Shown piece by piece: positions 2,094 to 30,580 of a stretch of 36,029 nucleotides of DNA (its first letter is position 1; each line of letters begins with the position of its first letter). The DNA comes from Gemmatimonadota bacterium. Its GTDB lineage: Bacteria; Gemmatimonadota; Gemmatimonadetes; Gemmatimonadales; Gemmatimonadaceae. The notes under the pieces were generated by a model. It did no database searches. It saw only the letters and a list, made by a program, of their open reading frames with translations, and was not told the origin of the DNA. Made by a program: the position numbers and the translations under genes. The stretch covers positions 1 through 36,029 of the forward strand of contig PMYN01000134.1 in assembly GCA_003171215.1 (NCBI GenBank), in the 5' to 3' direction.

Positions 2094-2639
2094 ATGATTC
2101 AGCGGGTCGATACCCCTGAAGTGCAGACTGACCATTGGTTCGTGATTTGGGCTGAATCGCGCGCCGAGAAGAAGGTCGAGAAACGGATGGCAGCGCTTGG
2201 GCTGACCCCTTGGCTACCGATCGTGAAGGAGCGCCACCGCTGGAGTGACCGCTGGCGGGAAGTTGAGTGCCCGCTCTTTCCCGGCTATCTCTTTGCCAAG
2301 GCCACCAATGCCGACTGGCATCAGATTCTTCGGACGCAGGGTGTCCTGACTGTGGTCAAAGAAGGCGGGAGGCCAGCTCTGCTTGCCGACAGTTTTGTCA
2401 CCGCTCTTCGTGATGCGATAGGACGCGAGGGCGCCGCGCCCGAAGCTGTTACCGAGCGCGTCGACTACGCCGCGGGAGACGAAGTGATCGTACAGGAGGG
2501 TGTGCTTCGCGGAGTTCGCGGGATCGTGCGCGAACGGAGGAGCGGACGCCAACTGGTGATTTGGGTCGCCGAGATTGGGAGGGGGGTCGGGTTCACGATT
2601 GGGTCGGCGCTGGTCACGAGGGCGCTCGCCGCATGGTGA
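2094..2639 (+). CDS. NusG-paralogue transcription antiterminator (UpxY/RfaH-like)
   Basis: A 181-residue specialised NusG paralogue expected to bind RNA polymerase and suppress termination across the downstream polysaccharide operon. The N-terminal NGN domain is recognisable: HWFVIWAESRAEKKVEKRM, then PLFPGYLFAKA, then the turn VLTVVKEGG. The C-terminal part (DEVIVQEGVLRGVRGIVRE) is a KOW-type segment. The length suits the UpxY/LoaP/RfaH group and is similar to housekeeping NusG, but placement inside an EPS cluster beside its regulator argues for a specialised factor. The ATG at 2094 is preceded by little Shine-Dalgarno signal. The next gene starts 7 bases after its stop, so it leads the 2.6-12.9 kb operon. 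Its recruitment site is not identified; one weak ops-like sequence lies at 25536. Confidence 0.87.
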   Translation: MIQRVDTPEVQTDHWFVIWAESRAEKKVEKRMAALGLTPWLPIVKERHRWSDRWREVECPLFPGYLFAKATNADWHQILRTQGVLTVVKEGGRPALLADSFVTALRDAIGREGAAPEAVTERVDYAAGDEVIVQEGVLRGVRGIVRERRSGRQLVIWVAEIGRGVGFTIGSALVTRALAAW

Positions 2640-2646
2640 TCATGCC

Positions 2647-3651
2647 GTGTCTGTGAGCGCACTTATCGTCGGCCTCGGGAGTATTGGCCGACGTCACCTG
2701 TCAAACTTGACACAGCTCGAACCCGATCTGAACGTAACAGTCTGGCATCAGCACTCGAGCCCGAATGACCACGCCGCTGATTATGCTGCGCGCCCAGTGC
2801 ATCATGTCTTCAATGTTCGCGATGCCTTGAAGGCGAAGCCGCGGTTCGCTTTGATCACCGGGCCCGCGTCGGTGCACGTGGAGACAGCGCTGGAACTTGC
2901 GGGACGCGACATCCACCTCCTGATTGAGAAACCCTTGTCGAATCGTCTCGAGGGTATTGATCTGCTGGTGGCACTATGCCGAGAGAAAAAATGCGCGCTG
3001 TTGGTAGGGTACAACTATCGGTTCTATCCGCCGCTGCAGGCGATGAGGCAAGCCATAGACGACGGACGAATTGGTCGAGTTTTGTCGGTGCGCGCTGAAG
3101 TAGGACAGTACCTGGCCGACTGGCGTCCGGGCGTTGACTACCGGCAAACTGTGTCCGCTCGATCGGAACTCGGTGGCGGCGCACTCCTCGAATTGAGCCA
3201 CGAGATTGACTATGTACGCTGGCTTGCCGGAGAAATCACCGAAGTCAGCGCCCGGATTGGTCATGTGAGCGATCTCGAGCTTGACGTGGAAGACACTGCG
3301 GAGATCACGCTGGCGTTCGCCAGCGGTGCCATTGGGAGCATTCATCTCGACATGGTCCAGCGCGCACCAACGCGAACGTGCAAGGTCATCGGCACTACGG
3401 GAACGTTGATCTGGGATGGTATCAGGCACCACGTGCGCTTGTATTCCTCGGAGACGTCGCAGTGGGCTGACGTGTCCGCACCCAGCGTGCGAGACCGCAA
3501 CGAGAGCTACCGGGCAGAGTTGCGTCATTTTCTCGATTGCGTCGCTGGCAAGGCAACTCCAGCAGTGACGGGAGAAGAAGGCCGGCGAGTGTTGCAGATC
3601 GTCCTGGCCGCCAGACGGTCCGCGATGGACTGCCGAGTCGTGACAGTGTGA
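2647..3651 (+). CDS. Gfo/Idh/MocA-family NAD(P)-dependent sugar oxidoreductase
   Basis: Dehydrogenase/reductase acting on a sugar or sugar nucleotide. The N-terminal Rossmann motif VGLGSIGRRHL comes right after the start, and the family's EKPLS signature lies near residue 98, followed by a typical alpha/beta C-terminal domain (YNYRFYPPLQAM, GGGALLELSHEIDYVRWL). The frame is open further upstream, but the Rossmann strand begins immediately after GTG 2647 (GTG 2653 is an alternative), giving 334 residues; the upstream part would overlap the antiterminator. Its stop overlaps the next start by four bases (GTGA), so the two are probably translationally coupled. Such oxidoreductases often accompany legionaminic-type genes, but the exact reaction cannot be read from sequence. 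Confidence 0.85.
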   Translation: MSVSALIVGLGSIGRRHLSNLTQLEPDLNVTVWHQHSSPNDHAADYAARPVHHVFNVRDALKAKPRFALITGPASVHVETALELAGRDIHLLIEKPLSNRLEGIDLLVALCREKKCALLVGYNYRFYPPLQAMRQAIDDGRIGRVLSVRAEVGQYLADWRPGVDYRQTVSARSELGGGALLELSHEIDYVRWLAGEITEVSARIGHVSDLELDVEDTAEITLAFASGAIGSIHLDMVQRAPTRTCKVIGTTGTLIWDGIRHHVRLYSSETSQWADVSAPSVRDRNESYRAELRHFLDCVAGKATPAVTGEEGRRVLQIVLAARRSAMDCRVVTV

Positions 3652-4364
3652 AGCCATATGTCGTGGCGGCGATCTTCGCGCGCGGTGGATCAAAGGGCGT
3701 TCCTCGGAAGAATGTTCGCCCGTTCGCCGGGAAACCCTTGATCGCGTATGCGATCGAAGCTGCTCATGCTAGCAAACTCATTGATCGTGTGATCGTATCC
3801 ACGGACGATGCAGAGATTGCTGAAGTAGCCCGCCGCTGTGGCGCTGAAGTGCCGTTCGTGCGCCCATCGGCACTGGCTCAAGACGACTCGCCGGAATGGA
3901 TGGCCTGGCAGCACGCTATTCGCACGCTCCATGGTAATGACGGTCCGCGCCCGTGGGATGTTTTTGTCTGCGTACCAACGACTTCGCCGTTGCGAAAAGT
4001 CGAAGACATCGATGCGTGCATTTCGAAACTGCTATCTGGTGATGCAGACATTGTGATTACGGTTCGCAATGCCGAGCGGAGCCCGCACTTCAACATGGTC
4101 ACGCTTAACGAGCGTGGCGTGGCACACCTCGTAATTCCGCCGCAGCGTGCGACATCGCGTCGACAAGATGCCCCGGCGGTCTTTGATATCACGACGGTAG
4201 CCTATGCCGCGCGGCCGTCGTTCGTATTGTCAGCGACGGGAATGTTTCAGGGCGTAGTTCAGGCGGTTGTCGTGCCCACCGCACGCGCTCTCGACATCGA
4301 CACCGAACTTGACTTCCGGGTGGCGGAGCTGCTGCTGCAACAGCAATTGGAGTCACATCCATGA
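3648..4364 (+). CDS. CMP-nonulosonic acid synthetase (acylneuraminate cytidylyltransferase; LegF/PtmB/NeuA-like)
   Basis: Activates a nonulosonic acid (sialic, legionaminic or related) with CTP to give the CMP-sugar used by transferases. The N-terminal signature ARGGSKGVPRKN is near residue 10, followed by GKPLIAYAIEAA, VIVSTDD, the PTTSPLR block and a late DIDTELDF, all family hallmarks. The start is GTG 3648, overlapping the upstream stop as GTGA and placing the first beta strand at the N terminus; 238 residues is normal. The stop overlaps the next ATG (ATGA). Neighbouring SDR, NeuB and NeuC genes favour legionaminic-type rather than plain N-acetylneuraminic acid. High confidence in the family, moderate in the exact sugar. 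Confidence 0.92.
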   Translation: MKPYVVAAIFARGGSKGVPRKNVRPFAGKPLIAYAIEAAHASKLIDRVIVSTDDAEIAEVARRCGAEVPFVRPSALAQDDSPEWMAWQHAIRTLHGNDGPRPWDVFVCVPTTSPLRKVEDIDACISKLLSGDADIVITVRNAERSPHFNMVTLNERGVAHLVIPPQRATSRRQDAPAVFDITTVAYAARPSFVLSATGMFQGVVQAVVVPTARALDIDTELDFRVAELLLQQQLESHP

Positions 4365-5164
4365 ATTCGCTCAAGGCTCTCATGGACCTTCATGGACGGG
4401 TTGCGCTGATTACCGGCGGCGCGGGCCACATTGGACGGGCAATGGCCGGTGCGCTGGCTGAACTCGGCGCCGGAGTCGTGTTGCTGGACCTTGATGCCCA
4501 GGCCGCCACGAACTTGGCGGCTCAGATACGTTTCGACTACGGCGTGGAGACGCTGGCTGTTGGCGTGGATCTGACCGACGAAGCCGCGGTTCGAACTGTG
4601 CCGGGAATCGTGCTGAAGCAATTTGGCCGCCTCGACATTCTCATCAACAATGCGGCGCTGGTTGGCACCTCGGAATTGAAAGGGTGGGGTGTCCCGTTCG
4701 ATGACCAGAGCGCCGCTACATGGCGGCTGGCCATGGAAGTAAATCTGACGGCACCATTCGTGCTCACGCAGGCGTCCCGCGCTGCGCTCGCTTCCTCAGG
4801 GCACGGTTCGGTGATCAACATCGGGTCCATCTACGGGATGGTCGCGCCGGATATGAGCCTGTACGCTGGTACAGCCCTCGGTAATCCGGCGGCATACTCG
4901 GCGAGCAAGGGCGGGCTCCTCCAACTGACCCGTTGGCTGTCGACCGTTCTGGCGCCGGATATTCGTGTCAACGCCATCACCGTCGGCGGCGTGTCGCGGA
5001 ATCAAGGCGCGGCGTTTCAGGAACGCTATATCTCTCGAACGCCGCTCGCTCGGATGGCCACCGAACAAGACTTGATCGGCGCAGTCGCGTACTTGGCCAG
5101 CGACCTCTCCGCCTACGTAACGGGACACAACCTCGTTGTCGACGGGGGGTGGACAGCGTGGTAA
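4361..5164 (+). CDS. SDR-family oxidoreductase (PtmA-like)
   Basis: Classical short-chain dehydrogenase/reductase of 267 residues. The cofactor motif TGGAGHIG is at residues 18-25, the NNAA structural motif near 96-99, and the catalytic Ser156, Tyr179 and Lys183 lie in INIGSIYG and AAYSASKGG. The ATG at 4361 overlaps the previous stop as ATGA. A homologous SDR (PtmA) accompanies the CMP-synthetase PtmB in Campylobacter flagellin glycosylation clusters, where it is implicated in modifying legionaminic-acid derivatives; that assignment here rests on synteny. The C terminus ends with the usual VTGHNLVVDGGWTAW. The family is certain; the substrate is unknown. Confidence 0.88.
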   Translation: MNSLKALMDLHGRVALITGGAGHIGRAMAGALAELGAGVVLLDLDAQAATNLAAQIRFDYGVETLAVGVDLTDEAAVRTVPGIVLKQFGRLDILINNAALVGTSELKGWGVPFDDQSAATWRLAMEVNLTAPFVLTQASRAALASSGHGSVINIGSIYGMVAPDMSLYAGTALGNPAAYSASKGGLLQLTRWLSTVLAPDIRVNAITVGGVSRNQGAAFQERYISRTPLARMATEQDLIGAVAYLASDLSAYVTGHNLVVDGGWTAW

Positions 5165-6210
5165 TCGCTGTGACGATCGGCGACAGGAGGGTGGGCAGCG
5201 GGTCTCCGTGCTTCGTCATTGCGGAAGCCGGCGTGAATCACAACGGCAGCGTGGAATCGGCATGTCGTTTGGCAGAGATTGCCCGTGAGGCTGGTGCCGA
5301 CGCGGTCAAATTCCAGACGTTCAAGGCGGCGAAGCTCGTCACGCTCGATGCACCGAAGGCGGAATATCAGCGGCAGACCACCTCCACCGGCGAGTCACAG
5401 TTCGAAATGCTTCGCGCGCTAGAACTGTCCGAAGCGGCTCATCGAGAAATCCTGGAGCATTGTCGAAGATCAGGCATCCTCTTTCTGTCATCGCCGTTTG
5501 ACGAAGAGAGTGCTGACCTCCTTGGCACGCTGGGAGTGCCGGCGTTCAAGATTCCATCTGGCGAGATAACGAATCTGACCTTCCTTTCCCACGTCGCGCG
5601 TAAGGGGAAGCCCATCATTTTGTCCACCGGGATGGCAGACCTTGCGGAAGTGGAGCAGGCGGTTGCGACCATTCGGCAGGCGGGAAATCCCAACATTATT
5701 CTGCTGCAGTGCGTGACGAACTATCCTGCCGCGCCGGAGGATGTCAACCTTCGTGCGATGAGAACGATGGCAGAAGCGTGCCATCTGCCGGTCGGCTATT
5801 CGGACCACACCGTCGGGAACGAAGTGGCGTTCGCTGCTGTTGCGCTCGGCGCATGCGTGGTCGAGAAACACTTCACACTCAGCCGGGAACTTCCCGGGCC
5901 TGACCACAAAGCGTCGATTGAGCCTGACGAATTGGCGCAACTGGTCCGCGGAATTCGCGCGGTTGAATCCGCGTTCGGCACGGGGCGCAAGGAACCAGCT
6001 GTGAGCGAAGCGGCGACGGCTGCAGTGGCGCGGCGGAGCCTGGTGGCGGTCTCGACCATACCCGCAGGTGCGGTCCTCACCGAGGATGTCGTCGCGATGC
6101 GCCGTCCCGGCACCGGATTGCCACCGAGCATGCGTGGACAGGTCGTGGGCCGCAGGGCACGGGTGCTGATTGCTGAAGGCACTTTGATCTCGATGGAGAT
6201 GCTGATTTGA
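5158..6210 (+). CDS. neuB: N-acetylneuraminate/legionaminate synthase
   Basis: Condenses phosphoenolpyruvate with a 6-carbon N-acetyl sugar (ManNAc or a 2,4-diacetamido-trideoxy sugar) to form a 9-carbon nonulosonic acid. The TIM-barrel NeuB domain is plain: FVIAEAGVNHNG at the N terminus, DAVKFQTFKA, SSPFDEESADLL, KIPSGEITNL, STGMADL, GYSDHTVG and VVEKHFTLSR. The last ~60 residues form an antifreeze/SAF-like domain (RRSLVAVSTIPAGAVLTEDVV, then GRRARVLIAEG). The frame is open far upstream; I chose GTG 5158, which overlaps the SDR stop, with GTG 5170 equally possible (it gives the familiar TIGDRRVGSG start). Length 350 residues, as usual. The stop overlaps the neuC start as TTGA. LegI is an alternative name. 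Confidence 0.93.
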   Translation: MVIAVTIGDRRVGSGSPCFVIAEAGVNHNGSVESACRLAEIAREAGADAVKFQTFKAAKLVTLDAPKAEYQRQTTSTGESQFEMLRALELSEAAHREILEHCRRSGILFLSSPFDEESADLLGTLGVPAFKIPSGEITNLTFLSHVARKGKPIILSTGMADLAEVEQAVATIRQAGNPNIILLQCVTNYPAAPEDVNLRAMRTMAEACHLPVGYSDHTVGNEVAFAAVALGACVVEKHFTLSRELPGPDHKASIEPDELAQLVRGIRAVESAFGTGRKEPAVSEAATAAVARRSLVAVSTIPAGAVLTEDVVAMRRPGTGLPPSMRGQVVGRRARVLIAEGTLISMEMLI

Positions 6211-7382
6211 GGACGATCGCCATCGTCACTGTCGCGAGATCCGACTACGGTATCTACCTGCCTATCCTCCGACGTATTCAGACGGATCCCGAACTGAATC
6301 TGCGGCTGATGGTGTCCGGCGCGCATCTCTCGCCTGAGTTTGGGATGAGCGTGAAGCTCATCGAAGCCGACGGATTCACCGTTGCCGACCGGGTCGAAAT
6401 GTTGTTGTCGTCGGATTCGCCAGAAGGCATTTCAAAATCGATCGGTCTCGGCGTGATTGGTTTTTCGCAGGCCTTTGCACGCTCGCAGCCGGATCTGCTT
6501 GTGGTGCTGGGCGACCGCTTCGAGATGTATGCCGCGGCTCTGGCGGCCCTCCCGTTCCTGATCCCCGTAGCGCACATTCACGGCGGCGAAGTCACGATGG
6601 GAGCGATTGACGACGCGTTGCGGCATTCGATGACCAAGCTGAGCCATGTGCATTTCGTGTCTACGGTCGACTATGGCCGACGGATTGAACAGCTGGGCGA
6701 GGAGTTGGATAGGATTGTGGTGTCGGGAGCGCCGGGTTTGGACAACCTGAACAGCTTCACGCGCCTCTCCGGAGCTGAGCTCTTTGCGAAGTTCGGTTGT
6801 TCCACGCAACCGCAACCTTTGCTAGTGACATTTCATCCGGTGACGCGTGAATACCCTCTCGTGAAAACGCAGACCCAGGCGCTGTTGGATGCACTCGACG
6901 AAGTCAAACTGCCCGTCGTGTTTACGCAGCCCAATGCCGATACGGGTGGTCGGCAGATCAGCCACATGATTGATGAGTTCGTCAGCCATCATGCAACCGC
7001 GTGCCGCGTCGACAACCTTGGCTTGCAGGGATATTTCAGCCTAATGAGTCTCGCTGCGGCCATGGTGGGGAATTCATCGAGCGGCATCATCGAAGCGCCG
7101 TCGTTCGGTCTTCCCGTCGTGAACATCGGCTCGCGTCAGACGGGCCGCGTCAGAGCCAGCAACGTGATCGATGTCGAAGCCGATCGCTCCGCCATCGTTG
7201 TCGGTATCCGCCAGGCCGTAAGGCCTGAGTTCCGTGACGGCCTTCGTGGTGAAGTCAACCCGTACGGGGACGGTCACGCCTCACGGATCATCGTCGAGCG
7301 ACTCAAGTCGATCACGCTGGGGCCGCGCTTGACGACGAAGCGATTCCGCGACGTGCGGGTCGCCGGCGTGATCGGCGGCTGA
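6207..7382 (+). CDS. neuC: Hydrolysing UDP-sugar 2-epimerase (NeuC/LegG)
   Basis: Converts a UDP- or GDP-linked HexNAc to the free 2-epimer with release of the nucleotide, the step before NeuB. It has 391 residues with the family pattern: TVARSDYGIYLPILRRI at the N terminus, LVVLGDRFEMYAAALAA, HIHGGEVTMGAIDDALRH, VTFHPVTREYP, FTQPNADTGG, and the C-terminal GNSSSGIIEAPSFGLPVVNIG. The start is an unusual TTG at 6207 sharing TTGA with the neuB stop, consistent with coupled translation. The substrate in a Leg pathway would be a diacetamido sugar nucleotide, as for LegG. Immediately downstream lies the frameshifted neuD remnant. Confidence 0.93.
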   Translation: MRTIAIVTVARSDYGIYLPILRRIQTDPELNLRLMVSGAHLSPEFGMSVKLIEADGFTVADRVEMLLSSDSPEGISKSIGLGVIGFSQAFARSQPDLLVVLGDRFEMYAAALAALPFLIPVAHIHGGEVTMGAIDDALRHSMTKLSHVHFVSTVDYGRRIEQLGEELDRIVVSGAPGLDNLNSFTRLSGAELFAKFGCSTQPQPLLVTFHPVTREYPLVKTQTQALLDALDEVKLPVVFTQPNADTGGRQISHMIDEFVSHHATACRVDNLGLQGYFSLMSLAAAMVGNSSSGIIEAPSFGLPVVNIGSRQTGRVRASNVIDVEADRSAIVVGIRQAVRPEFRDGLRGEVNPYGDGHASRIIVERLKSITLGPRLTTKRFRDVRVAGVIGG

Positions 7383-7386
7383 TCCC

Positions 7387-8038
7387 TTGACGCGTTAGTG
7401 CGTCACACCTGGCGGTGGCGGTCACGCCCCTTTGCTGATCGACAGTCCGTCGATTCATGGTGTTGGGCTCCACAATGTCTTGGACTCCAATCCAAAGTTG
7501 TCGGGCGCAACACCGCTCAACGCGCCAATTCTAGGGCGAAGGATATGTTGAGTTTGCTTGCCGGCCACGAGGTGAATCGATTCGTCATCGGGCTGGGTGG
7601 GACGGGCGTCAATCGACGGCGACAGCGACTTTTCTACTTAGCCCGGGCGCAGGGCCTGCGTTCGATGAGGGTTATCCAACCGAGGATGCATTTCTTCGTG
7701 CTCGGCGCGAATTGGCGACCGATCGAAATTGTCGCCCGGCAGCGTTGTCAACGCCCGAGCCGAGGCCGGTTTTGGTGCTATCGTCAATCACGGAAGTATG
7801 GCGGAACGCGGTTGTCAGATTTGTGGTCAGATCTACGTGGCCACCAACGCGGTGCCGGCCAGCACAGTACGAGTCGGCCTGCGAGCGCGTGTCGGAGCCG
7901 GAGCGACGATCCGATGGGGATTGTTATCGGTGAGGGCGCCGTCGGCGGGTCCGCACCCGCCGTCATGAAGAACGTTGTAGCGGGCAGTTGGTGGTCGGTG
8001 TGCCGGCGCGCGCGGTGGCGAGGCAACGGAGGATGTTC
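7387..8038 (+). pseudogene. Degraded NeuD/PglD/LegH-type sugar acetyltransferase
   Basis: Remnant of a left-handed beta-helix acyltransferase, recoverable only by changing frame several times. Frame of 7399: TPGGGGHAPLLIDSPSIHG, then LDSNPKLSG and PILG. Frame of 7398 from about 7535: MLSLLAGHEVNRFVIGLGG and RRRQRLFYLARAQGLR. Frame of 7681: ARIGDRSKLSPGSVVNARAE, GAIVNHG and VRVGLRARVGAGATI. Back to the first frame near 7915: GIVIGEGAVGGS and VMKNVVAGS. Finally, from about 7988: VVVGVPARAV. A TAG at 7396 also interrupts the N terminus. At least four shifts in 650 bases, with both flanking genes intact, argue for true decay rather than one sequencing error. In related clusters NeuD/LegH acetylates the 4-amino intermediate or O-acetylates the acid. 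An intact relative is at 29930. Confidence 0.85.
8028..8032 (+). promoter_or_regulatory. Strong Shine-Dalgarno GGAGG deciding the hisF-like start
   Basis: GGAGG ends six bases before ATG 8039 and leaves no room before ATG 8033, so 8039 is the likely start. Most other genes in this operon start by stop/start overlap; here translation can begin independently of the decayed neuD. Confidence 0.6.
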
Positions 8039-8914
8039 ATGAACGTACGCATTGCTCCGCGACTCGATATCAAGGGGCCCAATCTCGTGAAGGGCATCCA
8101 CTTCGAAGGGCTACGCGTGTTGGGCAAGCCCGAGGATTTCGCCCGATATTACTATGAGAATGGAGCTGACGAACTGATCTATATGGATGCCGTGGCGAGC
8201 CTATATGGCCGCAATAGCTTGCTGGAGATCATCGAGCGCACGTCGCGCGAGATCTTCATCCCGCTGACCGTCGGAGGTGGGTTGCGGACCATCGAGGACA
8301 TACGGAAAGTGTTGCGCGCGGGCGCGGACAAAGTGTCGTTGAACACGGCCGCCATCGCTCGTCCGGAATTTGTGCATGAGGCCTCACGCACGTTCGGCGC
8401 ATCCACCATCGTTGTGTCGATTGAAGCAATGCCCGTGGCGAATGGACGATACGAGGCATATGTCAATTACGGCCGCGACAGGACCAGTGTGGACGCGCTC
8501 GAGTGGGCCGTCCAAGCCGCTGACCTCGGCGCCGGGGAGATTATGATTACGTCGATTGCCCGCGAGGGAACCGGCCAAGGATTCGACGTTGAACTGGTCC
8601 GGAAGGTGTCGGATCAGGTCTCTGTCCCAGTAATCGCGGGCGGCGGCGCCGGCAGCGTCGATGATGTCAGGCGCGTGATCACGGAAGGGCGCGTGGAAGC
8701 GGTCGCGCTCGCGTCGATCCTGCACTACAACTATCTGAAACAGGCTCAGCAGGTGGCGGGCGGCGACTACGCCACCGAGGGTAACACCGAGTTCCTGAAA
8801 CGCGGCACCGGATTCTCTCGCGTAAAAGACGCGTCACCGCGCGATGTCAAGTCGCATCTGGCCGCGAACAGCATCGCTTGTCGATACTCCGAGGACGCTG
8901 GCACACATGTCTGA
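8039..8914 (+). CDS. HisF-like cyclase subunit (polysaccharide amidotransfer system)
   Basis: (beta/alpha)8-barrel protein of the imidazole-glycerol-phosphate synthase cyclase family, recruited here to work with HisH as an ammonia source. The start MNVRIAPRLDIKG keeps the first barrel Asp (Asp10), and PLTVGGGLRTIEDI and VIAGGGAGSVDDV are the phosphate-binding loops. Two positions differ from histidine-pathway HisF: the catalytic Asp of the 'SID' strand is Glu129 (VVSIEA) and the following Asp of 'TSID' is Ala (TSIAREG). It has 291 residues, about 35 longer at the C terminus than usual. No other histidine-biosynthesis gene is nearby, while a HisH-like gene overlaps by 8 bases and a WbpG-like amidotransferase follows. 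In LPS and flagellin clusters such trios install acetamidino groups. Confidence 0.88.
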   Translation: MNVRIAPRLDIKGPNLVKGIHFEGLRVLGKPEDFARYYYENGADELIYMDAVASLYGRNSLLEIIERTSREIFIPLTVGGGLRTIEDIRKVLRAGADKVSLNTAAIARPEFVHEASRTFGASTIVVSIEAMPVANGRYEAYVNYGRDRTSVDALEWAVQAADLGAGEIMITSIAREGTGQGFDVELVRKVSDQVSVPVIAGGGAGSVDDVRRVITEGRVEAVALASILHYNYLKQAQQVAGGDYATEGNTEFLKRGTGFSRVKDASPRDVKSHLAANSIACRYSEDAGTHV

Positions 8915-9608
8915 TGCGGCCCCCCCACGCGTGGCGATTGTTGACTACGGCCTCGGAAATCTCTACAGCGTCAAGCAAGCGTGCGCCTACGTCGGATTGT
9001 CCGCGACGATCACATCGTCGAAACCGGACATTCTCGCATCGGATGCGATCATCCTTCCGGGCGTCGGTGCGTACGGCGACGCGATGGCGACTCTCGGCAC
9101 CCTGGGGCTGATCACGGCCATTCAGGACTACGCCGCCGCCGGCCGGCCGCTCGTTGGTATTTGTCTCGGCATGCAACTGCTCATGAGCGGCAGCGATGAG
9201 TTCGGTCAGCGCGATGGTCTCGGTATCATCCCCGGACGCGTTGTGCGATTCCAGGATCCGGTCGTCGACGATCACAAGCTCAAGATACCGCAAATTGGCT
9301 GGAACGGCATTTATCGGGTCAAGGCTATGGTATCTGCCGGTGGTGATCCTTGGACCGGCACGTTCCTCGAGTCCGTTGCGGACGGCGAGCCGATGTACTT
9401 CGTTCACAGCTACGTGGTCCGACCCGCCGATCCTGACGTGGTGTTGTCGACAACGCGCTATGGGAACATCGAGTTTTGTTCGTCGCTGAGATTCAAGAAT
9501 GTCGTTGCATGCCAGTTCCATCCCGAGCGGAGTGGCCCTGAAGGGCTGAAGATCTATCGGACCCTAGCCAAGATGATCAGTGATCGTATCACGGGAGCAG
9601 TCGAGTGA
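8907..9608 (+). CDS. HisH-like class I glutamine amidotransferase subunit
   Basis: Glutaminase that releases ammonia from glutamine for the partner HisF-like/WbpG-like proteins. 233 residues. The N terminus VAIVDYGLGNLYSVKQA is typical of HisH. The nucleophile is Cys86 in GICLGMQLL and the catalytic pair is His205 and Glu207 in CQFHPERSG, so the triad is complete. The start ATG 8907 overlaps the HisF-like stop by 8 bases. The stop overlaps the next GTG as GTGA. A longer upstream in-frame extension exists but would run back into hisF and lacks family similarity. Role in histidine synthesis is unlikely given the context. Confidence 0.9.
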   Translation: MSDAAPPRVAIVDYGLGNLYSVKQACAYVGLSATITSSKPDILASDAIILPGVGAYGDAMATLGTLGLITAIQDYAAAGRPLVGICLGMQLLMSGSDEFGQRDGLGIIPGRVVRFQDPVVDDHKLKIPQIGWNGIYRVKAMVSAGGDPWTGTFLESVADGEPMYFVHSYVVRPADPDVVLSTTRYGNIEFCSSLRFKNVVACQFHPERSGPEGLKIYRTLAKMISDRITGAVE

Positions 9609-10816
9609 ATCCGTCGCCTAAGGCCAAGTACGGTCTCCCCGAACACGTCATGTTTTGCAAGCGATGTGTCATGTCTAATCAGCGGCCAGCATCGATTCCG
9701 GAGTTCAGACACCTACCGGATCGCCAGGGCGCGAAGTACATGCACATTGATGAAGAGGGCGTGTGCGACGCCTGCCGGCATGCGGACCAGAAGGAAGCGA
9801 TCAATTGGAAGGTCCGCGAGGAAGAACTGGTCAGACTGTTGGATCAGCACCGGCGCAACGACGGCGCGTATGACTGCCTAGTTCCCGGTAGCGGCGGCAA
9901 GGATAGCGTCTATCAATCGCACGTGTTGAAATACCGTTACGGGATGCACCCGTTGACCTGCACTTGGCCGCCGACGTTATACACCGACTACGGGTACCAC
10001 AATTATCGCACTTGGCTTGAGGTCGGTGGTTTTGACAACGTGACCTTCAAACCGAATGGCCGCGTTCACACAACTCTGACACGACTGGCCATTCAGAATC
10101 TGCTGCATCCGTTCCAGACCTTCATCCTCGGGCAGAAGAACCTGGCTCCGAAAATCGCAGCGCAGTATGGAATTTCGCTCATCTTCTATGGTGAAAACGA
10201 GGCCGAGTACGGGAACCCGCTGGCCGACAACCAGACTTCACTTCGCGATAAGTCGTATTTCGCTATGCGCGATATGACCGATGTGTACTTGGCCGGCGTC
10301 TCAGTTCCGGACTTAGTAGGCAAACATGGCCTCACGCTGCAGGATCTGAGGGCCTATTTGCCGATGCCATCGAGCGATCTGGAGAAGACGTCGATTCAGG
10401 TGCATTACCTCGGCTATTACCTGAGGTGGACGCCTCAAGAGTCTTACTACTACGCGGTCGAGAACACCGGCTTCCAGGCGCGCCCGTTCCGGACCGAGGG
10501 CACCTACAGCAAGTACAATAGCATCGACGACAAGATCGATGATCTGCACTATTACACGACGTGGATCAAGTTCGGCCTCGGCCGCGCGTCGTATGACGCG
10601 TCTCAGGAGATCCGCAACCGGCACTTGACTCGTGAGGAAGGCGTGGCCCTTGTGCACCAGTTCGACGGCGAGGTGCCAACGCGCTATTTCTCGGAAGTCA
10701 TGGAGTACATCGGCATGTCGGCAGACGAGTTCATGTCGCTCTGTGATGACGCCAGGTCAGCGCACTTGTGGGAGAAGCACGGCGGCGAGTGGGTGTTGCG
10801 TCACGTGGTGGCGTAG
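9605..10816 (+). CDS. N-acetyl sugar amidotransferase (WbpG/PseA-like)
   Basis: PP-loop ATP pyrophosphatase-type enzyme that uses ATP and ammonia to turn an N-acetyl group of a sugar into an acetamidino group. 403 residues. The N terminus carries two cysteine pairs, Cys18/Cys21 (FCKRCVMS) and Cys54/Cys57 (VCDAC), likely zinc ligands. The PP-loop SGGKDS is at residues 96-101. Later segments such as FILGQKNLAPKIA and IFYGENEAEYGNP are typical of the family. GTG 9605 overlaps the HisH-like stop. With the HisF/HisH-like pair it forms the complete trio known from Pseudomonas O-antigen (WbpG) and Campylobacter pseudaminic-acid modification (PseA). The target sugar here is inferred to be the nonulosonate or its precursor. 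Confidence 0.9.
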   Translation: MNPSPKAKYGLPEHVMFCKRCVMSNQRPASIPEFRHLPDRQGAKYMHIDEEGVCDACRHADQKEAINWKVREEELVRLLDQHRRNDGAYDCLVPGSGGKDSVYQSHVLKYRYGMHPLTCTWPPTLYTDYGYHNYRTWLEVGGFDNVTFKPNGRVHTTLTRLAIQNLLHPFQTFILGQKNLAPKIAAQYGISLIFYGENEAEYGNPLADNQTSLRDKSYFAMRDMTDVYLAGVSVPDLVGKHGLTLQDLRAYLPMPSSDLEKTSIQVHYLGYYLRWTPQESYYYAVENTGFQARPFRTEGTYSKYNSIDDKIDDLHYYTTWIKFGLGRASYDASQEIRNRHLTREEGVALVHQFDGEVPTRYFSEVMEYIGMSADEFMSLCDDARSAHLWEKHGGEWVLRHVVA

Positions 10817-10843
10817 TTGCAAGGGCCTGAACACAGGCATACA

Positions 10844-11920
10844 ATGTTCCGCGATATTGACAAGCTCTGCGTCCGGCTGGGCGACTCGGTTCGAAAAGCC
10901 ATCAAGCATATCGAAGACGGGCAATGCGGCATCGTGCTCGTCGTCGACGGGGACCGTCGTCTCTTAGGGACCATCACCGATGGCGATATCCGTCGTGCGC
11001 TACTGGCCGAACAGGATATTGACGCACCTGTGGAGTTGTTCTTGGCGATTAAAGAGAATTCTCCGTATGCGCATCCCGTGACAGCACCGATCGGTACCGC
11101 GCCGGCCGAGCTGCTAGCGCGGATGATCTCAGGCGTGTTCCGGCAGATTCCACTGATTGATGGGGACGGCCGTGTTGCAGCCTTGGCGACGCTTCAGGAT
11201 TTACTGCCGGCGTCGACTCCGGCCTTGGGAGCCGTCATCATGGCCGGCGGGTTGGGTACGCGGTTGATGCCGTTAACGGAGGACCTGCCCAAGCCGATGT
11301 TGCCGGTCGGCGGCCGGCCGCTTATGGAACACATCATCGAGCAGCTCCAGCAGGCGGGTATTCGTCGGGTCCATGTGAGCACGCACTACAAGCCCGAGAA
11401 GATCATCGAACACTTTGGTGACGGGCAGGCTTTCGGGGTAGACTTGAACTATGTCAACGAAGATCTGCCGCTGGGAACCGGCGGCGCTCTGGGGCTGATC
11501 TCGCCGCCGAGCGAGACGCAACTGGTAATCAACGGCGACATCCTCACTCAGATTGATTTCGGCGCGATGCTGGCGTTTCACCAGGACAATGCAGCGTCGC
11601 TCACCATGGCCGTGCGGCGATATGAACTGCAGGTTCCGTACGGGGTGATCGAGTGCGACGGAGCGCGAGTGACCAGTCTCAAGGAGAAGCCGCAAGTCGG
11701 TGTTCTTGTGAACGCGGGCGTGTATCTGCTAGAACCTTCGGTTTACGAGTTCATTCCCAGAGGCCGGAGCTTCAACATGACTGACCTGATCTGGTGGCTT
11801 CTCGACGCCGGTAGGACAGTCATTAGTTTCCCGATTCGCGAGTATTGGCTGGACGTCGGCCAGCACGGTGACTACGCGCAAGCGCAAGACGACATGAAAA
11901 ATGGAAAGGTAACGCGGTGA
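10844..11920 (+). CDS. CBS-domain sugar-1-phosphate nucleotidyltransferase (PtmE-like)
   Basis: Makes a nucleotide sugar from a hexosamine-1-phosphate; the Campylobacter homologue PtmE makes GDP-glucosamine for legionaminic acid. Residues ~1-125 are two CBS motifs (GIVLVVDGDRRLLGTITDGD; FRQIPLIDGDGRVAALATLQ). From ~126 there is a nucleotidyltransferase domain: VIMAGGLGTRLMPLT, LPKPMLPVGGRPLMEHII, and the metal/sugar site VINGDIL. ATG 10844 gives 358 residues and starts right before the first CBS motif; a TTG at 10817 is in frame but adds residues without family similarity. The stop overlaps the next GTG as GTGA. The presence of this gene is the best hint that the pathway is GDP-linked legionaminic-type. 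Confidence 0.88.
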   Translation: MFRDIDKLCVRLGDSVRKAIKHIEDGQCGIVLVVDGDRRLLGTITDGDIRRALLAEQDIDAPVELFLAIKENSPYAHPVTAPIGTAPAELLARMISGVFRQIPLIDGDGRVAALATLQDLLPASTPALGAVIMAGGLGTRLMPLTEDLPKPMLPVGGRPLMEHIIEQLQQAGIRRVHVSTHYKPEKIIEHFGDGQAFGVDLNYVNEDLPLGTGGALGLISPPSETQLVINGDILTQIDFGAMLAFHQDNAASLTMAVRRYELQVPYGVIECDGARVTSLKEKPQVGVLVNAGVYLLEPSVYEFIPRGRSFNMTDLIWWLLDAGRTVISFPIREYWLDVGQHGDYAQAQDDMKNGKVTR

Positions 11921-12900
11921 ACTGGACCGGGAAACGAGTGCTCGTCACGGGTGCCGGTGGCTTCATCGGAAGCCATTTGATCGAGCGTTTGGTCGAACTG
12001 GGCGCGAACACGCGCGCGTTCGTCCACTACAACGCGCTAGGCTCCTGGGGCTGGCTTGATCATTCGCCGCTACGCGGGGAGATGACTGTTATGGCGGGTG
12101 ATATTTGTGACTCGGATAGCGTGCGCGAGGCAATGAAAACCATCGACGTTGTGTTCCACCTAGCCGCCCTCATCGCCATTCCATATTCATATCGCGCGCC
12201 AACGTCGTACGTCCGAACGAACATCGGCGGCACGCTGAACGTGCTGCAGGCTGCCCGGGAGATAGGAATCGAGCGGCTTGTCCATACGTCGACCAGCGAG
12301 GTCTACGGCACGGCGCGCTATGTCCCAATCGACGAAGCGCATCCGCTGCAAGGGCAGTCGCCGTACTCCGCGAGCAAGATCGGAGCGGACAAGATGGCTG
12401 AGGCCTTCAGCCTGTCGTTCAACCTGCCCGTTGTCACCGTGCGGCCTTTCAATACGTTTGGTCCGCGGCAGTCGGCACGAGCAGTGCTGCCTACGATCAT
12501 GAGTCAATGCCTTGCGGGAGGCACGGTGAAGCTCGGCAATCTCAGTCCCACGCGCGATCTGAACTTTGTCGAGAACACGGTCGAGGGATTCGTGATGGCA
12601 GCGTCGGCTCCCGACGCGGTCGGCCACACACTGAACCTCGGATCAGGGCGCGAGATCAGTATCGGCGATCTTGCGCGGCTGATCGCGACGATCGCCGGTC
12701 ACGAAATCACGATCGAAATGGATGAGGCCCGTCTCCGCCCGATCGGCAGCGAAGTCGAACGCCTACTCGCGGACAATACGTTGGCAAGAAAGCTACTCGG
12801 ATGGGAGCCATCCGTGAGCCTTGAAGAGGGGCTGCATCGCACACTTGAGTGGATGAAGTTGAACGCCAGGAGCTATCGCACGAATATCTATGCCGTTTGA
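11917..12900 (+). CDS. legB: NAD-dependent nucleotide-sugar 4,6-dehydratase (LegB-like)
   Basis: Extended SDR of 327 residues, likely GDP-GlcNAc 4,6-dehydratase or a close relative. Cofactor motif TGAGGFIGSHL is at residues 11-21; VVFHLAALIAIPYSY and RTNIGGTLNVLQAA follow. Active-site blocks are TSTSEVYGTA (Thr126, Ser127, Glu128) and PYSASKIGADK (Tyr150, Lys154). The C-terminal part VRPFNTFGPRQSARA is typical of 4,6-dehydratases. GTG 11917 overlaps the PtmE-like stop. In known Leg clusters LegB is followed by the aminotransferase LegC, but none is found here: the next 400 bases hold no recognisable gene. Substrate assignment rests on context. Confidence 0.85.
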   Translation: MNWTGKRVLVTGAGGFIGSHLIERLVELGANTRAFVHYNALGSWGWLDHSPLRGEMTVMAGDICDSDSVREAMKTIDVVFHLAALIAIPYSYRAPTSYVRTNIGGTLNVLQAAREIGIERLVHTSTSEVYGTARYVPIDEAHPLQGQSPYSASKIGADKMAEAFSLSFNLPVVTVRPFNTFGPRQSARAVLPTIMSQCLAGGTVKLGNLSPTRDLNFVENTVEGFVMAASAPDAVGHTLNLGSGREISIGDLARLIATIAGHEITIEMDEARLRPIGSEVERLLADNTLARKLLGWEPSVSLEEGLHRTLEWMKLNARSYRTNIYAV

Positions 12901-13313
12901 GAGATGCGCGGAGCGAGTTCGGTGCGATCCATGACTCTGTACGTGATCTCGCGGTACCGGACAATGCGTTGGCGTAGATCACGAGAGCTAGTTGAGTTCT
13001 CGCGCTCCATTCGCGCCATGAGTTGCGACGTTATTGATTCCGTCGATGATTCAGACCAACGCGGATGGTGAGCGTTCTTCACCGCAGGGAACGGGCGATG
13101 AACAGGAGTTCGACACATACCGCCTTCACCAGCGTGATTCCTGGCAGGCAGTGCTGCCGCGTCCGTGAACACCGCCGCCATCGGCGAGCGCTAGTGTGCT
13201 CGACGATCGTCTGCAAAGTTCCGTTGCATAACGCGTGAAACTCATCCAAACGCCCATGCGGGCGAAGCGTTCTATTGTCGAAATGACGGATGCTGTGCCG
13301 GCGCTAAGACATT
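12901..13313. other. 413-base gap with no recognisable gene
   Basis: All six frames are interrupted or lack family motifs. I looked specifically for a LegC aminotransferase remnant after legB and saw none (no GNE..Y...D...VSS block and no PLP-lysine block). No convincing terminator with a T-run. It probably contains the end of the legB transcript and the promoter of the flippase gene, but I cannot point to either. Confidence 0.5.
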
Positions 13314-27130: not shown

Positions 27131-28081
27131 TGCAAGTCGTTGCAGTACACGTTCCGGCGCTACGTCGAGCCGTGCGATTTTACGGATTCTTTCAAGACGG
27201 GAGTAGTCTCGGTTTGTCAGGGCGTCGAGGACCTCGTCGATGGCTTTTAACATGTCGGCGTCCACTCCGATCTGCGTCCCGCGCACTCTCGCTCGCAGTG
27301 CTGAGAGCTGACGCACGCCGAGTAAGAAGTTCTCCTCGTATTTTCTCCACCAGGATTCAGGTGATCGAGCGATCTGAAGTGCGGTGTCCAAGGGCAGCTG
27401 ACTTCCAACCGCGTTTGCGGTATGCTGACGGTATGCAACTGTTGGCTCATCCAAGTAGATGATCGCTCCGAAGAGGGCTGCGCACTGGGCGAGCCACCAG
27501 TCGTGCATCACCACCTTCGGCATCGGCAATGCGTGTTTGAGGAGAGCTTGGTTGACAAGGGAGGCACAACCAGTCACTCTGTTTTGGAACAGAAGCTGGC
27601 GAGCGGTCCGCTTTTCCATCGACGGCAACCGTTGCCGACGTGCGAACGACGGATGCAGGAGACGCAGATCGAATTCGACGACACGGAGGTCGCTGTGAAT
27701 GAGCACCGGCATCTCTCGCCCGAATCGAACTTCGTGGTCGCAAAGAGCCGCCAGCATGCTGGTCGTCTTGTTTGGATACCAAACGTCGTCTTGATCGCAC
27801 GGAAAGACGTAGCTCTCGCCCACGCGTTGGCAGTGGGCGAGTAATTTGGCGAAGCTGGCTGACGGCCCTAGTCGCTGCCCGTCCGACGGCAAGATCGTGA
27901 TTCGCGGATCGGCGGTTGCCGCACTCCGGAGAATACCTAGCGTGTCGTCAGACGAACCGTCGTCGCGGACATACAATCTCCAGCGAGTAGCCGCTTGCTC
28001 CTGAAGACTGGACAGCTGAGCCGGCAGATGCTCTGCACCATTATAAGTTGCAAGTATTATCGCATGCGACGGGATCGCCAT
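27062..28081 (-). CDS. Glycosyltransferase family 2 (rhamnosyltransferase-like)
   Basis: 339 residues with a GT-A fold: HAIILATYNGAEHLPAQL, then YVRDDGSSDDTLGIL (DDGS/DD nucleotide-binding region), then VFPCDQDDVWYPNK with DQDD as the metal-binding DxD motif, and later VMHDWWLAQCAALFG. That arrangement, especially CDQDDVW and HDWW, is characteristic of rhamnosyl- and related transferases. The C-terminal ~90 residues are helical and charged. Starting at ATG 28081 it is divergent from the PglC-like gene with only 68 bases between starts. Its 3' end overlaps Wzy by 69 bases. Rhamnose as donor would fit the RmlD-like gene at 30965, but RmlA/B/C are not here. Confidence 0.88.
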   Translation of the reverse strand: MAIPSHAIILATYNGAEHLPAQLSSLQEQAATRWRLYVRDDGSSDDTLGILRSAATADPRITILPSDGQRLGPSASFAKLLAHCQRVGESYVFPCDQDDVWYPNKTTSMLAALCDHEVRFGREMPVLIHSDLRVVEFDLRLLHPSFARRQRLPSMEKRTARQLLFQNRVTGCASLVNQALLKHALPMPKVVMHDWWLAQCAALFGAIIYLDEPTVAYRQHTANAVGSQLPLDTALQIARSPESWWRKYEENFLLGVRQLSALRARVRGTQIGVDADMLKAIDEVLDALTNRDYSRLERIRKIARLDVAPERVLQRLALFFKVLLIADPVAPNGRIRGDD

Positions 28082-28149
28082 TGGCTCAGCAATTCTGCGA
28101 CGAGGCGCTCGCCGTCTGGTGCGTCTCGACTTGCGGGCAGCAATATTCG

Positions 28150-28809
28150 ATGACGTACGCTGGCAAGAGAACCGTTGATATCGTTGTGATTCTTGCCACT
28201 GCCGTGCTGTGGCTTCCGCTTCTGCTTGTAACGGGCATCTTCGTTCGGGTCTTCATGGGTGCGCCGATCTTATTCAAGCAACAACGAGTGGGTTTGAACG
28301 ATCGGTCATTCGAGTTGCTCAAATTTCGGACAATGACTGACCCACGCTCGGCGGACGGCCGAATGCTCCCCGACAGCCAGCGGTTATCTCGAATCGGTCG
28401 TGCGCTCCGGTCTTCATCGCTTGACGAGTTACCGCAACTCATCAACGTGCTTCGTGGGGAGATGAGCTTGGTAGGTCCGAGACCTCTGTTGCCGGAGTAC
28501 CTTGCATTGTACACCTCAGAGCACCGGCGGAGACACACGGTCCGTCCGGGATTGACTGGATTGGCCCAAGTATCCGGCCGCAACGCTTTATCGTGGCCTG
28601 ACCGTTTGGATCTGGATATTCGATATGTTGACACGTGCTCGATCTGGAACGACCTGACTATCTTAGTCCGAACGGTTGGAGTCGGTCTGCTTCACCGTGG
28701 CGTGGCTGAATCAGGGATGGCTACAATGACGCCCTTTGCGGGTTACGAGCCTCGGCGCCCAGACAGTTGCGAACGGAGTCGATCGTGCGATCCTGATCAG
28801 CGTCCGTGA
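28150..28809 (+). CDS. pglC: Small monotopic phosphoglycosyl transferase (PglC-like)
   Basis: Initiates repeat-unit assembly by moving a sugar-1-phosphate (diNAcBac-1-P in Campylobacter) to undecaprenyl phosphate. 219 residues. A single N-terminal membrane segment (IVVILATAVLWLPLLLVTGIF) is a re-entrant helix. Then QQRVGLNDRSFELLKFRTM, the catalytic Asp-Glu pair in [29 protein letters not shown] and the C-terminal RPGLTGLAQVSGRN are all family signatures. ATG 28150 is used: the frame is open upstream, but that part overlaps the divergent GT2 start and lacks family features. Its last 89 bases overlap the convergent PglE-like gene. The substrate is inferred from neighbouring PglE and PglD. Confidence 0.88.
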   Translation: MTYAGKRTVDIVVILATAVLWLPLLLVTGIFVRVFMGAPILFKQQRVGLNDRSFELLKFRTMTDPRSADGRMLPDSQRLSRIGRALRSSSLDELPQLINVLRGEMSLVGPRPLLPEYLALYTSEHRRRHTVRPGLTGLAQVSGRNALSWPDRLDLDIRYVDTCSIWNDLTILVRTVGVGLLHRGVAESGMATMTPFAGYEPRRPDSCERSRSCDPDQRP

Positions 28810-29887
28810 GGCTTGACGAGGATGGCAAACATAGCCCAGTACGATAGAGCCTCTCAGCCACAGCACCCCCGATAATCTGAGAGCCAGCGAAGATGGGTTG
28901 AGTGTGCATCGGCCTCCAGACCGGCCTAGCTTCTATGTTCTGGGCCTCAAGCGACTGGACCAGCTCCGCTGGTGTGATCCTGTGCTCGATTGGATCAAGG
29001 AACACCACGCTCAGCCAGCGTGAATGCATGCCCCATGGTGCTTCGCGCTGCAACTCGACTCCGCCCATCGTTTCGAGCGCGTCGCGGTAACGTTTGGCAA
29101 CCCGTTGACGTTCGTCAACCCGCTGGTCGAGAACGCGCAACTGACCTCTGCCAATGCCGGCCAGCAGGTTGCTCATACGATAATTGTATCCCAGTTCTCG
29201 GTGAAGATACTCCAGAGACGGCTCGCGGGATTGGTTCGCCCATTTACGCATCACCACAAGAGCTTTGCTGTCTCGCGACACCACCATGCCGCCGCCAGTC
29301 GTCGTAATGATCTTGTTTCCATTAAAGCTCAGAATCGAATAGTCGGCGGTAGTCCCAGTCTGCCTTCCTCTATATTTTGCCCCGAGGGACTCGGCGGCAT
29401 CCTCCACCAGTACCACACCATATTTGGCACAGATTGATGCAATCGAATCCACGTCCGCGTGCTGTCCGTAGAGGTGCACGACGATCAGCGCTTTGGGGAG
29501 CGTTCTTGTTCGTTCGCTTGCTCGAAAATAATCTTCGACCAGTCCAGGATCCATGTTTCCGGAGCCGGCCTCGCTATCAATGAAAACGGGCTGCGCGCCG
29601 AGATACATGATCGGCCAGACGGAGCCCGCGAATGTCAAGGTGGAGACTGCTACGCGGTCACCCGTCGCCACGCCTATCGCGCGCAACACCAAGTGAATGG
29701 CTGCGGTCCCCGAACTCACCGCGAGCGTCGAAACGTTTTCGGCAAGACGTTGAGCGACTTCGGACTCGAACGCGTCTATGTTCGGACCCGTCGAGGACAA
29801 CCAGTTCGACGCGAAGGCGTCGGCAATGAAACTCTGTTCGTTACCGCTCATGTGCGGTACGGATAAGTAGATCCGACTCGGCTTCAC
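28721..29887 (-). CDS. pglE: DegT/DnrJ/EryC1/StrS aminotransferase (PglE-like)
   Basis: PLP-dependent sugar aminotransferase of 388 residues that puts an amino group at C-4 of a UDP-4-keto sugar, using glutamate. The N terminus RIYLSVPHMSGNEQ resembles PglE and is followed by WLSSTGPNIDAFE, AVSSGTAAIHLVLRA and VEDAAESLGAKYRG. The PLP lysine lies in LSFNGNKIITTTGGGMVVS, and ELGYNYRMSNLLAG and RPVWRPMHTQPIF are family blocks. GTG 29887 is chosen because it starts seven codons before the conserved LSVPHM; upstream is not similar to the family. It is divergent from PglD by 42 bases and overlaps PglC at the 3' end. It could also serve the legionaminic pathway, which lacks its LegC here. Confidence 0.88.
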   Translation of the reverse strand: MKPSRIYLSVPHMSGNEQSFIADAFASNWLSSTGPNIDAFESEVAQRLAENVSTLAVSSGTAAIHLVLRAIGVATGDRVAVSTLTFAGSVWPIMYLGAQPVFIDSEAGSGNMDPGLVEDYFRASERTRTLPKALIVVHLYGQHADVDSIASICAKYGVVLVEDAAESLGAKYRGRQTGTTADYSILSFNGNKIITTTGGGMVVSRDSKALVVMRKWANQSREPSLEYLHRELGYNYRMSNLLAGIGRGQLRVLDQRVDERQRVAKRYRDALETMGGVELQREAPWGMHSRWLSVVFLDPIEHRITPAELVQSLEAQNIEARPVWRPMHTQPIFAGSQIIGGAVAERLYRTGLCLPSSSSLTDADQDRTIDSVRNCLGAEARNPQRASL

Positions 29888-29929
29888 TATTCCTGGATAG
29901 TCTAAGATGATGAGACAACGGGTGTACGG

Positions 29930-30580
29930 ATGATGGCGGCGACCAAATCTAGATCGGCCGACGATCATTCAATATACATCGTGGGATCCGGCGGGCATGC
30001 ACGTGTTGTTGCCGATATCTTGATTGCTGCAGGCCAGATGCCAACGGCATTCATCGACGAGCCGCACGCAGGCGAAAGCCGCCTAGGCTTACCTGTGATT
30101 GGTGCCGGAGATGTTGGCTCCGACGTCCGGGTGATTGTCGCAATCGGCGATAATGAGGTGCGCGAGCGTGTCGCGCAGGACTACCACCGTTTTGCGACCG
30201 CCATTCATCCGAGAGCCACTATCGCACCCGACCTGCAAATCGGTTGCGGAACGGTGATCATGGCGGGCGTAGTCCTCAGCGTAGGCGTCTCAATCGGCAA
30301 CCATTGCATTGTGAACACCCACGCATCGATCGATCATGACGTGGTGCTCGACGAGTTCGTACACGTTGGGCCCGGTGCAACGTTGGGAGGCTCAGTTCGC
30401 GTTGGCCGGGCATCCGTAGTTTCGCTTGGTGCGAACATCATCCATGGTCGAACTATCGGCCGGGACACGATCATCGGCGCCGGAGCGGTAGTACTGCGTG
30501 ACGTTCCAGAGCGGGTGGTGGCCGTGGGCGTTCCGGCAACTGTGATTCGGTCTAGAAAGCCTGGCGATCGCTACCTCTGA
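29930..30580 (+). CDS. pglD: NeuD/PglD-family sugar N-acetyltransferase
   Basis: 216-residue acyltransferase that acetylates the C-4 amino group of the bacillosamine precursor with acetyl-CoA. The N-terminal Rossmann-like part has IYIVGSGGHARVVADIL; the C-terminal left-handed beta helix starts near HPRATIAPDLQIGCGTVI and runs through hexapeptide repeats, ending with GAGAVVLRDVPERVVAVGVPATVIR. The catalytic His pair is in NTHASIDHDVVLDEF and VHVGPGA. ATG 29930 or ATG 29933. It is divergent from pglE, so a shared 42-base promoter region is likely. The decayed NeuD at 7387 belongs to the same family, so this gene might also replace that function (inference). Confidence 0.88.
   Translation: MMAATKSRSADDHSIYIVGSGGHARVVADILIAAGQMPTAFIDEPHAGESRLGLPVIGAGDVGSDVRVIVAIGDNEVRERVAQDYHRFATAIHPRATIAPDLQIGCGTVIMAGVVLSVGVSIGNHCIVNTHASIDHDVVLDEFVHVGPGATLGGSVRVGRASVVSLGANIIHGRTIGRDTIIGAGAVVLRDVPERVVAVGVPATVIRSRKPGDRYL

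Follow-up and report, generated by a model that had tools for sequence, protein, structure and literature searches.

In legionaminic acid synthesis, LegC makes a 4-amino group that is then acetylated by LegH. The pathway proceeds from UDP-diacetylbacillosamine in Legionella and from GDP-linked precursors in Campylobacter (PMC6137143). In Plesiomonas, legH is needed for legionaminic acid-dependent flagella: a legH insertion mutant makes no flagella (PMC4481668). The Plesiomonas shigelloides LegH, a protein of 217 aa, is encoded in a cluster together with PtmA, PtmF, PtmE, LegF, LegI, LegG, and LegB (PMC4481668), and the locus described here carries a gene of the same family with the same neighbors. 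Unlike in P. shigelloides, however, legH is broken and has lost the codon for the catalytic His, the cluster is without a canonical legC, and HisF/HisH/WbuX amidation genes have been added. The family also includes PglD, PglB, and PerB (3BSS, 4M98, and 4EA7), which share its left-handed β-helix.

The window, i.e., the whole stretch of 36,029 nucleotides that was analysed, is contig C81 of a 4.14-Mb MAG (162 contigs, 98.8 % complete). Profile searches and comparison with the Plesiomonas legionaminic-acid cluster (PMC4481668) revealed a compact plus-strand operon between 2.6 and 12.9 kb with the order PtmF-LegF-PtmA-LegI-LegG-(LegH)-WbuZ/HisH/WbuX-PtmE-LegB. Upstream of legH, it specifies a PtmF-like Gfo/Idh oxidoreductase (2635–3651), a LegF/NeuA-like CMP-nonulosonate cytidylyltransferase (3651–4364), a PtmA-like short-chain dehydrogenase (4361–5164), a LegI/NeuB-like synthase (5158–6210), and a LegG/NeuC-like hydrolysing 2-epimerase (6207–7382). 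Downstream follow a WbuZ/HisF2-like amidation protein (8039–8914), a HisH-like glutamine amidotransferase (8910–9608), a WbuX-type N-acetyl sugar amidotransferase (9605–10816), a PtmE-like CBS-nucleotidyltransferase (10817–11920), and a LegB-like NDP-GlcNAc 4,6-dehydratase (11917–12900). All of these genes are intact; the labels PtmF, PtmA, and PtmE are based on protein type and gene company rather than on direct sequence comparison. Judged from its gene content, the operon is best read as a legionaminic-acid set, with CMP-legionaminic acid as its predicted product. The first-pass annotation of this DNA had called the operon intact except for legH, which is not quite right: of the genes of a GDP-type legionaminic-acid cluster (PtmE/PtmF/PtmA and LegB/C/H/G/I/F), canonical legC is missing from the operon in addition to the broken legH. 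A NusG-family (RfaH/LoaP-like) gene is located at the head of the operon (2094–2639), preceded by a small winged-helix MarR-like reading frame (1652–2071, its translation judged by eye) and, on the minus strand, by a gene for a PglF/CapD-type dehydratase that is cut by the contig end (3–1628). Antiterminators of the NusG family could lessen polarity across an untranslated pseudogene. With a GC content of 0.59, against 0.64–0.68, the window is consistent with a polysaccharide island. Its neuC is absent from all of 17 same-genus genomes. Misbinning of the contig was considered and rejected, as its composition agrees both with the genome (4-mer r of 0.84–0.91 with two of the genome's own contigs) and with the phylum.

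Between the gene for NeuC, which ends at 7382, and that for the HisF-like protein, with its ATG at 8039, both intact as had been noted before, lies the remnant of a NeuD/LegH-type sugar N-acetyltransferase gene (7387–8042, plus strand). An extent of 7387–8038 had been given earlier; the start is correct, while at its end the remnant reaches the TGA at 8040–8042 that overlaps the ATG of hisF (ATGA). All NeuD-like motifs that had been named as spread over the three plus-strand frames were indeed found there. When the three frames were compared with the NeuD/LegH family by frameshift-aware alignment, using a NeuD profile of 218 positions built from eight syntenic relatives, a near-full-length match was obtained: window positions 7399–8011 aligned with profile positions 6–211 (206 positions) at a score of 349, versus a mean of 28 (sd 3, maximum 35) for 12 shuffles of the DNA. 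The homology runs along the whole NeuD/LegH sugar N-acetyltransferase domain (TIGR03570). Where at least four frame changes had been claimed, exactly four single-base changes were located, near 7537, 7686, 7915, and 7977, and these were stable in number and place when the frameshift penalty was varied between −9 and −30; the laxest penalty (−5) added two mutually compensating shifts near 7444–7448. The same procedure gave no frame change in any of three intact relatives. The early TAG, also reported before, is located at 7396–7398, as codon 4 of the frame in which legH was originally read and which starts with TTG at 7387; with this stop and the four frame changes, no single open reading frame for legH is left. 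No promoter, terminator, tRNA, or Rfam RNA was found within the remnant.

The decay is also visible at the level of amino acid residues. Read through the shifts, the remnant has a mean identity of 44 % to nine relatives, versus 58 % among these relatives themselves. For NeuB, the corresponding values are 62 versus 61 %, for NeuC 61 versus 61 %, and those of HisF and HisH fall short of the relatives' mean by no more than about 4–5 points; the neighbors thus have hardly any excess divergence or none, in contrast to the remnant. Of 55 residues invariant in the nine relatives, 15 were changed in the remnant, as compared to one to eight in leave-one-out controls. The catalytic His of the HD/HE motif is an Arg, and the Asp of EHD is gone too: where EHD is expected, the remnant has ERG. 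The catalytic role of the mutated position is supported by the PerB structures 4eaa and 4eab, which are variants of this very His. Given its four frame changes, its early stop, its excess divergence, and the missing catalytic His, neuD/legH is regarded here, as in the first-pass annotation, as a multi-frameshift pseudogene. The pattern of its sequence indicates that legH decayed through substitutions and indels over a long time, which its neighbors did not. No relevant literature on neuD pseudogenes in nonulosonate clusters was found. Gene decay of such a kind is fairly ordinary in sugar-making operons, and events of this type, in which a pseudogene is found together with a probable substitute on its own contig, are already known.

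Comparison of the same locus in related genomes (Aminicenantes, Chloroflexi, and others) showed that the slot after neuC is occupied by an intact NeuD-type acetyltransferase gene. Intact legH in the same synteny was found in seven loci (L001–L004, L007, L010, and L011) and in the same-class genome G254. In several relatives hisF follows the intact neuD, and the position between legG/neuC and a hisF-like gene is conserved, with the same order in L002, L004, L011, and L046. The legC gene of the relatives is placed either before ptmF or after legB. In the window, no legC remnant was detected at either place, after LegB or before PtmF, as frameshift-aware scores did not exceed shuffled levels on either strand. 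A gap of 413 nt (12901–13313) follows legB, at the legC site of several relatives; neither of its strands holds a recognisable remnant.

About 21–22 kb downstream of the remnant, on the same contig, two divergent neighboring genes specify putative enzymes for the kinds of step that the operon has lost. The protein encoded at 29930–30580 (plus strand) is an intact N-acetyltransferase of the NeuD/PglD family, proposed here as the substitute of LegH. It scores 193 bits against a curated cut-off of 160.8 bits, and its gene is the only one of the NeuD family above this cut-off in the whole genome (match at 29.97–30.54 kb). Its catalytic motif is intact: like PglD, PglB, and PerB, it keeps the catalytic residues, in the form DHD. 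The other gene (28721–29968, minus strand) encodes an aminotransferase of the PglE/LegC family. No other protein of the genome matches the LegC family better, and it is proposed here as the substitute of LegC. In the test for canonical LegC (TIGR04181), it stays at 330 bits, below the cut-off of 420 bits, while the LegC proteins of relatives are above it with 473 and 478 bits. Among solved structures it is closest to 4ZTC and 1O61, both of C. jejuni PglE. A gene for a PglC-type bacterial sugar (phosphoglycosyl) transferase (28048–28809, plus strand) flanks the pair.

It had been suggested that the acetylation step was either lost or taken over. The presence of an intact acetyltransferase gene beside that of a PglE/LegC-type aminotransferase makes takeover the better reading: the steps performed by a PglE/PglD pair are the very ones that the operon lacks, and takeover is therefore the simplest account. 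The favored reading, to which we assign a probability of roughly 0.6, is that legH is a true and fairly old pseudogene that decayed under relaxed selection after it was made redundant by the distal PglE-like/PglD-like pair. LegH would originally have been the N-acetyltransferase for the 4-amino group of the nucleotide-linked legionaminic-acid precursor. The distal PglE-like aminotransferase would take care of 4-amination and the PglD-like acetyltransferase of 4-N-acetylation of this precursor, which would render both the legC of the operon, now absent, and legH dispensable. Selection on legH would have been relaxed while the flanking genes on both sides were kept under selection, in an operon that is presumably still active. 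A counterpoint to takeover is that PtmE and LegB suggest GDP-sugars, whereas PglE/PglD-type enzymes are known for UDP-sugars; therefore, either the PglE/PglD pair would need to tolerate the other nucleotide, or NeuC would need to work by way of the UDP route. As both a UDP route, in Legionella, and a GDP route, in Campylobacter, have been described, either nucleotide is possible (PMC6137143). That PtmE and LegB have been retained speaks for the GDP form, in combination with nucleotide tolerance of the PglE/PglD pair.

The annotation of glycan operons often relies on a handful of marker genes. In the operon discussed here, a central step is broken and a second one is missing. As the contig itself encodes likely substitutes for both, the presence of neuB and neuC alone tells neither which sugar is made nor by which enzymes. 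The locus offers a clean case for asking whether PglD-like enzymes serve two routes, nonulosonate and bacillosamine, at once.

Instead of by the distal pair, acetylation might have been replaced by an unrelated enzyme, a GNAT or a formyltransferase, encoded elsewhere in the genome, in which case the PglE/PglD pair would serve only to make a bacillosamine-type priming sugar for PglC. The same-family genome G272 has LegB, LegC, NeuC, NeuB, and PtmE but lacks a NeuD-family gene, and none was found (E ≤ 1e-20) in either of the same-family neuC-bearing genomes G272 and G036. Formyltransferase-like genes were noticed by eye in the nonulosonate clusters of L047 (9963–10853) and L050 (13679–14500), which suggests variants with N-formyl in place of N-acetyl. 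Together, these clusters make a non-homologous replacement possible in the window genome as well. Against it, no GNAT or formyltransferase gene that could act as a replacement was recognised among the window genes examined, and the window is also without a canonical legC, for which the PglE-like enzyme is the sole good candidate; we consider this explanation unlikely. Somewhat less likely still is that the step was abandoned without any replacement, the operon making a nonulosonate that needs no acetylation, or making nothing while its other genes have not yet decayed. NeuB and NeuC do score above the N-acetylneuraminate cut-offs, and sialic acid itself is made without LegB, LegC, or LegH. LegB and PtmE, however, are not involved in the synthesis of plain sialic acid, and legH has accumulated many substitutions while its neighbors have stayed full length and normally conserved. 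Highly improbable, finally, is a sequencing or assembly error in a gene that is really intact: the frame changes are single-base indels and the genome is a MAG, but the neighboring genes on the same contig have no frame changes, the indels lie outside long homopolymers, and this explanation was rejected on the excess divergence and the scattered loss of invariant residues, including the catalytic His, which are beyond what a few indel errors can cause.

Since the legH remnant ends on the start of hisF, the expression of the latter deserves separate mention. It had been proposed that hisF, having retained a GGAGG of its own, can thereby withstand a loss of translational coupling. The GGAGG ribosome-binding site is real; it lies inside the legH remnant (8028–8032, plus strand), 6 nt before the ATG at 8039. 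Relatives in which neuD is intact likewise have a purine-rich ribosome-binding site ahead of hisF (for example, GGGAGG in L011), and that of the window was therefore inherited. Coupling has not obviously been lost, because there is an open frame whose end falls precisely on the start of hisF. This plus-strand frame 0 runs over 214 codons from the GTG at 7398–7400, which overlaps the premature TAG (TAGTG), to the TGA ending at 8042; it spans the remnant and is largely out of the ancestral frame. It contains no stops, where codon shuffles within segments predict five (P(open) 0.002), dinucleotide shuffles give a P of 0.008, and relatives that were reverse-translated and given the same indels yield P values of 0.001–0.043 (mean 0.015) for frame 0 and a mean of 0.034 for any frame, all P values being uncorrected for the fact that the frame was noticed after looking. 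GC-rich genes often carry long alternative frames, and in the intact gene of G254, each alternative frame contains just two to three stops; the open frame 0 is a lead, not a result.

On this basis, ribosomes might still translate dead legH in a different frame, which would serve as a coupling relay to hisF without yielding a functional protein, a scenario that we regard as doubtful. Ribosomes leaving neuC would restart at the TTG at 7387, stop at the TAG, restart on the overlapping GTG, and then run 214 codons to the TGA on the hisF start. Selection would keep frame 0 open, by which ribosomes would be delivered to hisF and Rho polarity would be avoided. No relevant literature on pseudogenes with translational coupling was found. 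That frame 0 specifies a new protein family was rejected: it has no Pfam hit, and its composition is like that of an out-of-frame translation. In relatives, overlaps of a few bases between some cluster genes of L004, L007, and L011 point to translational coupling. In L006, an Omnitrophota MAG, neuC and neuD are fused in one frame of 641 codons (5001–6926).
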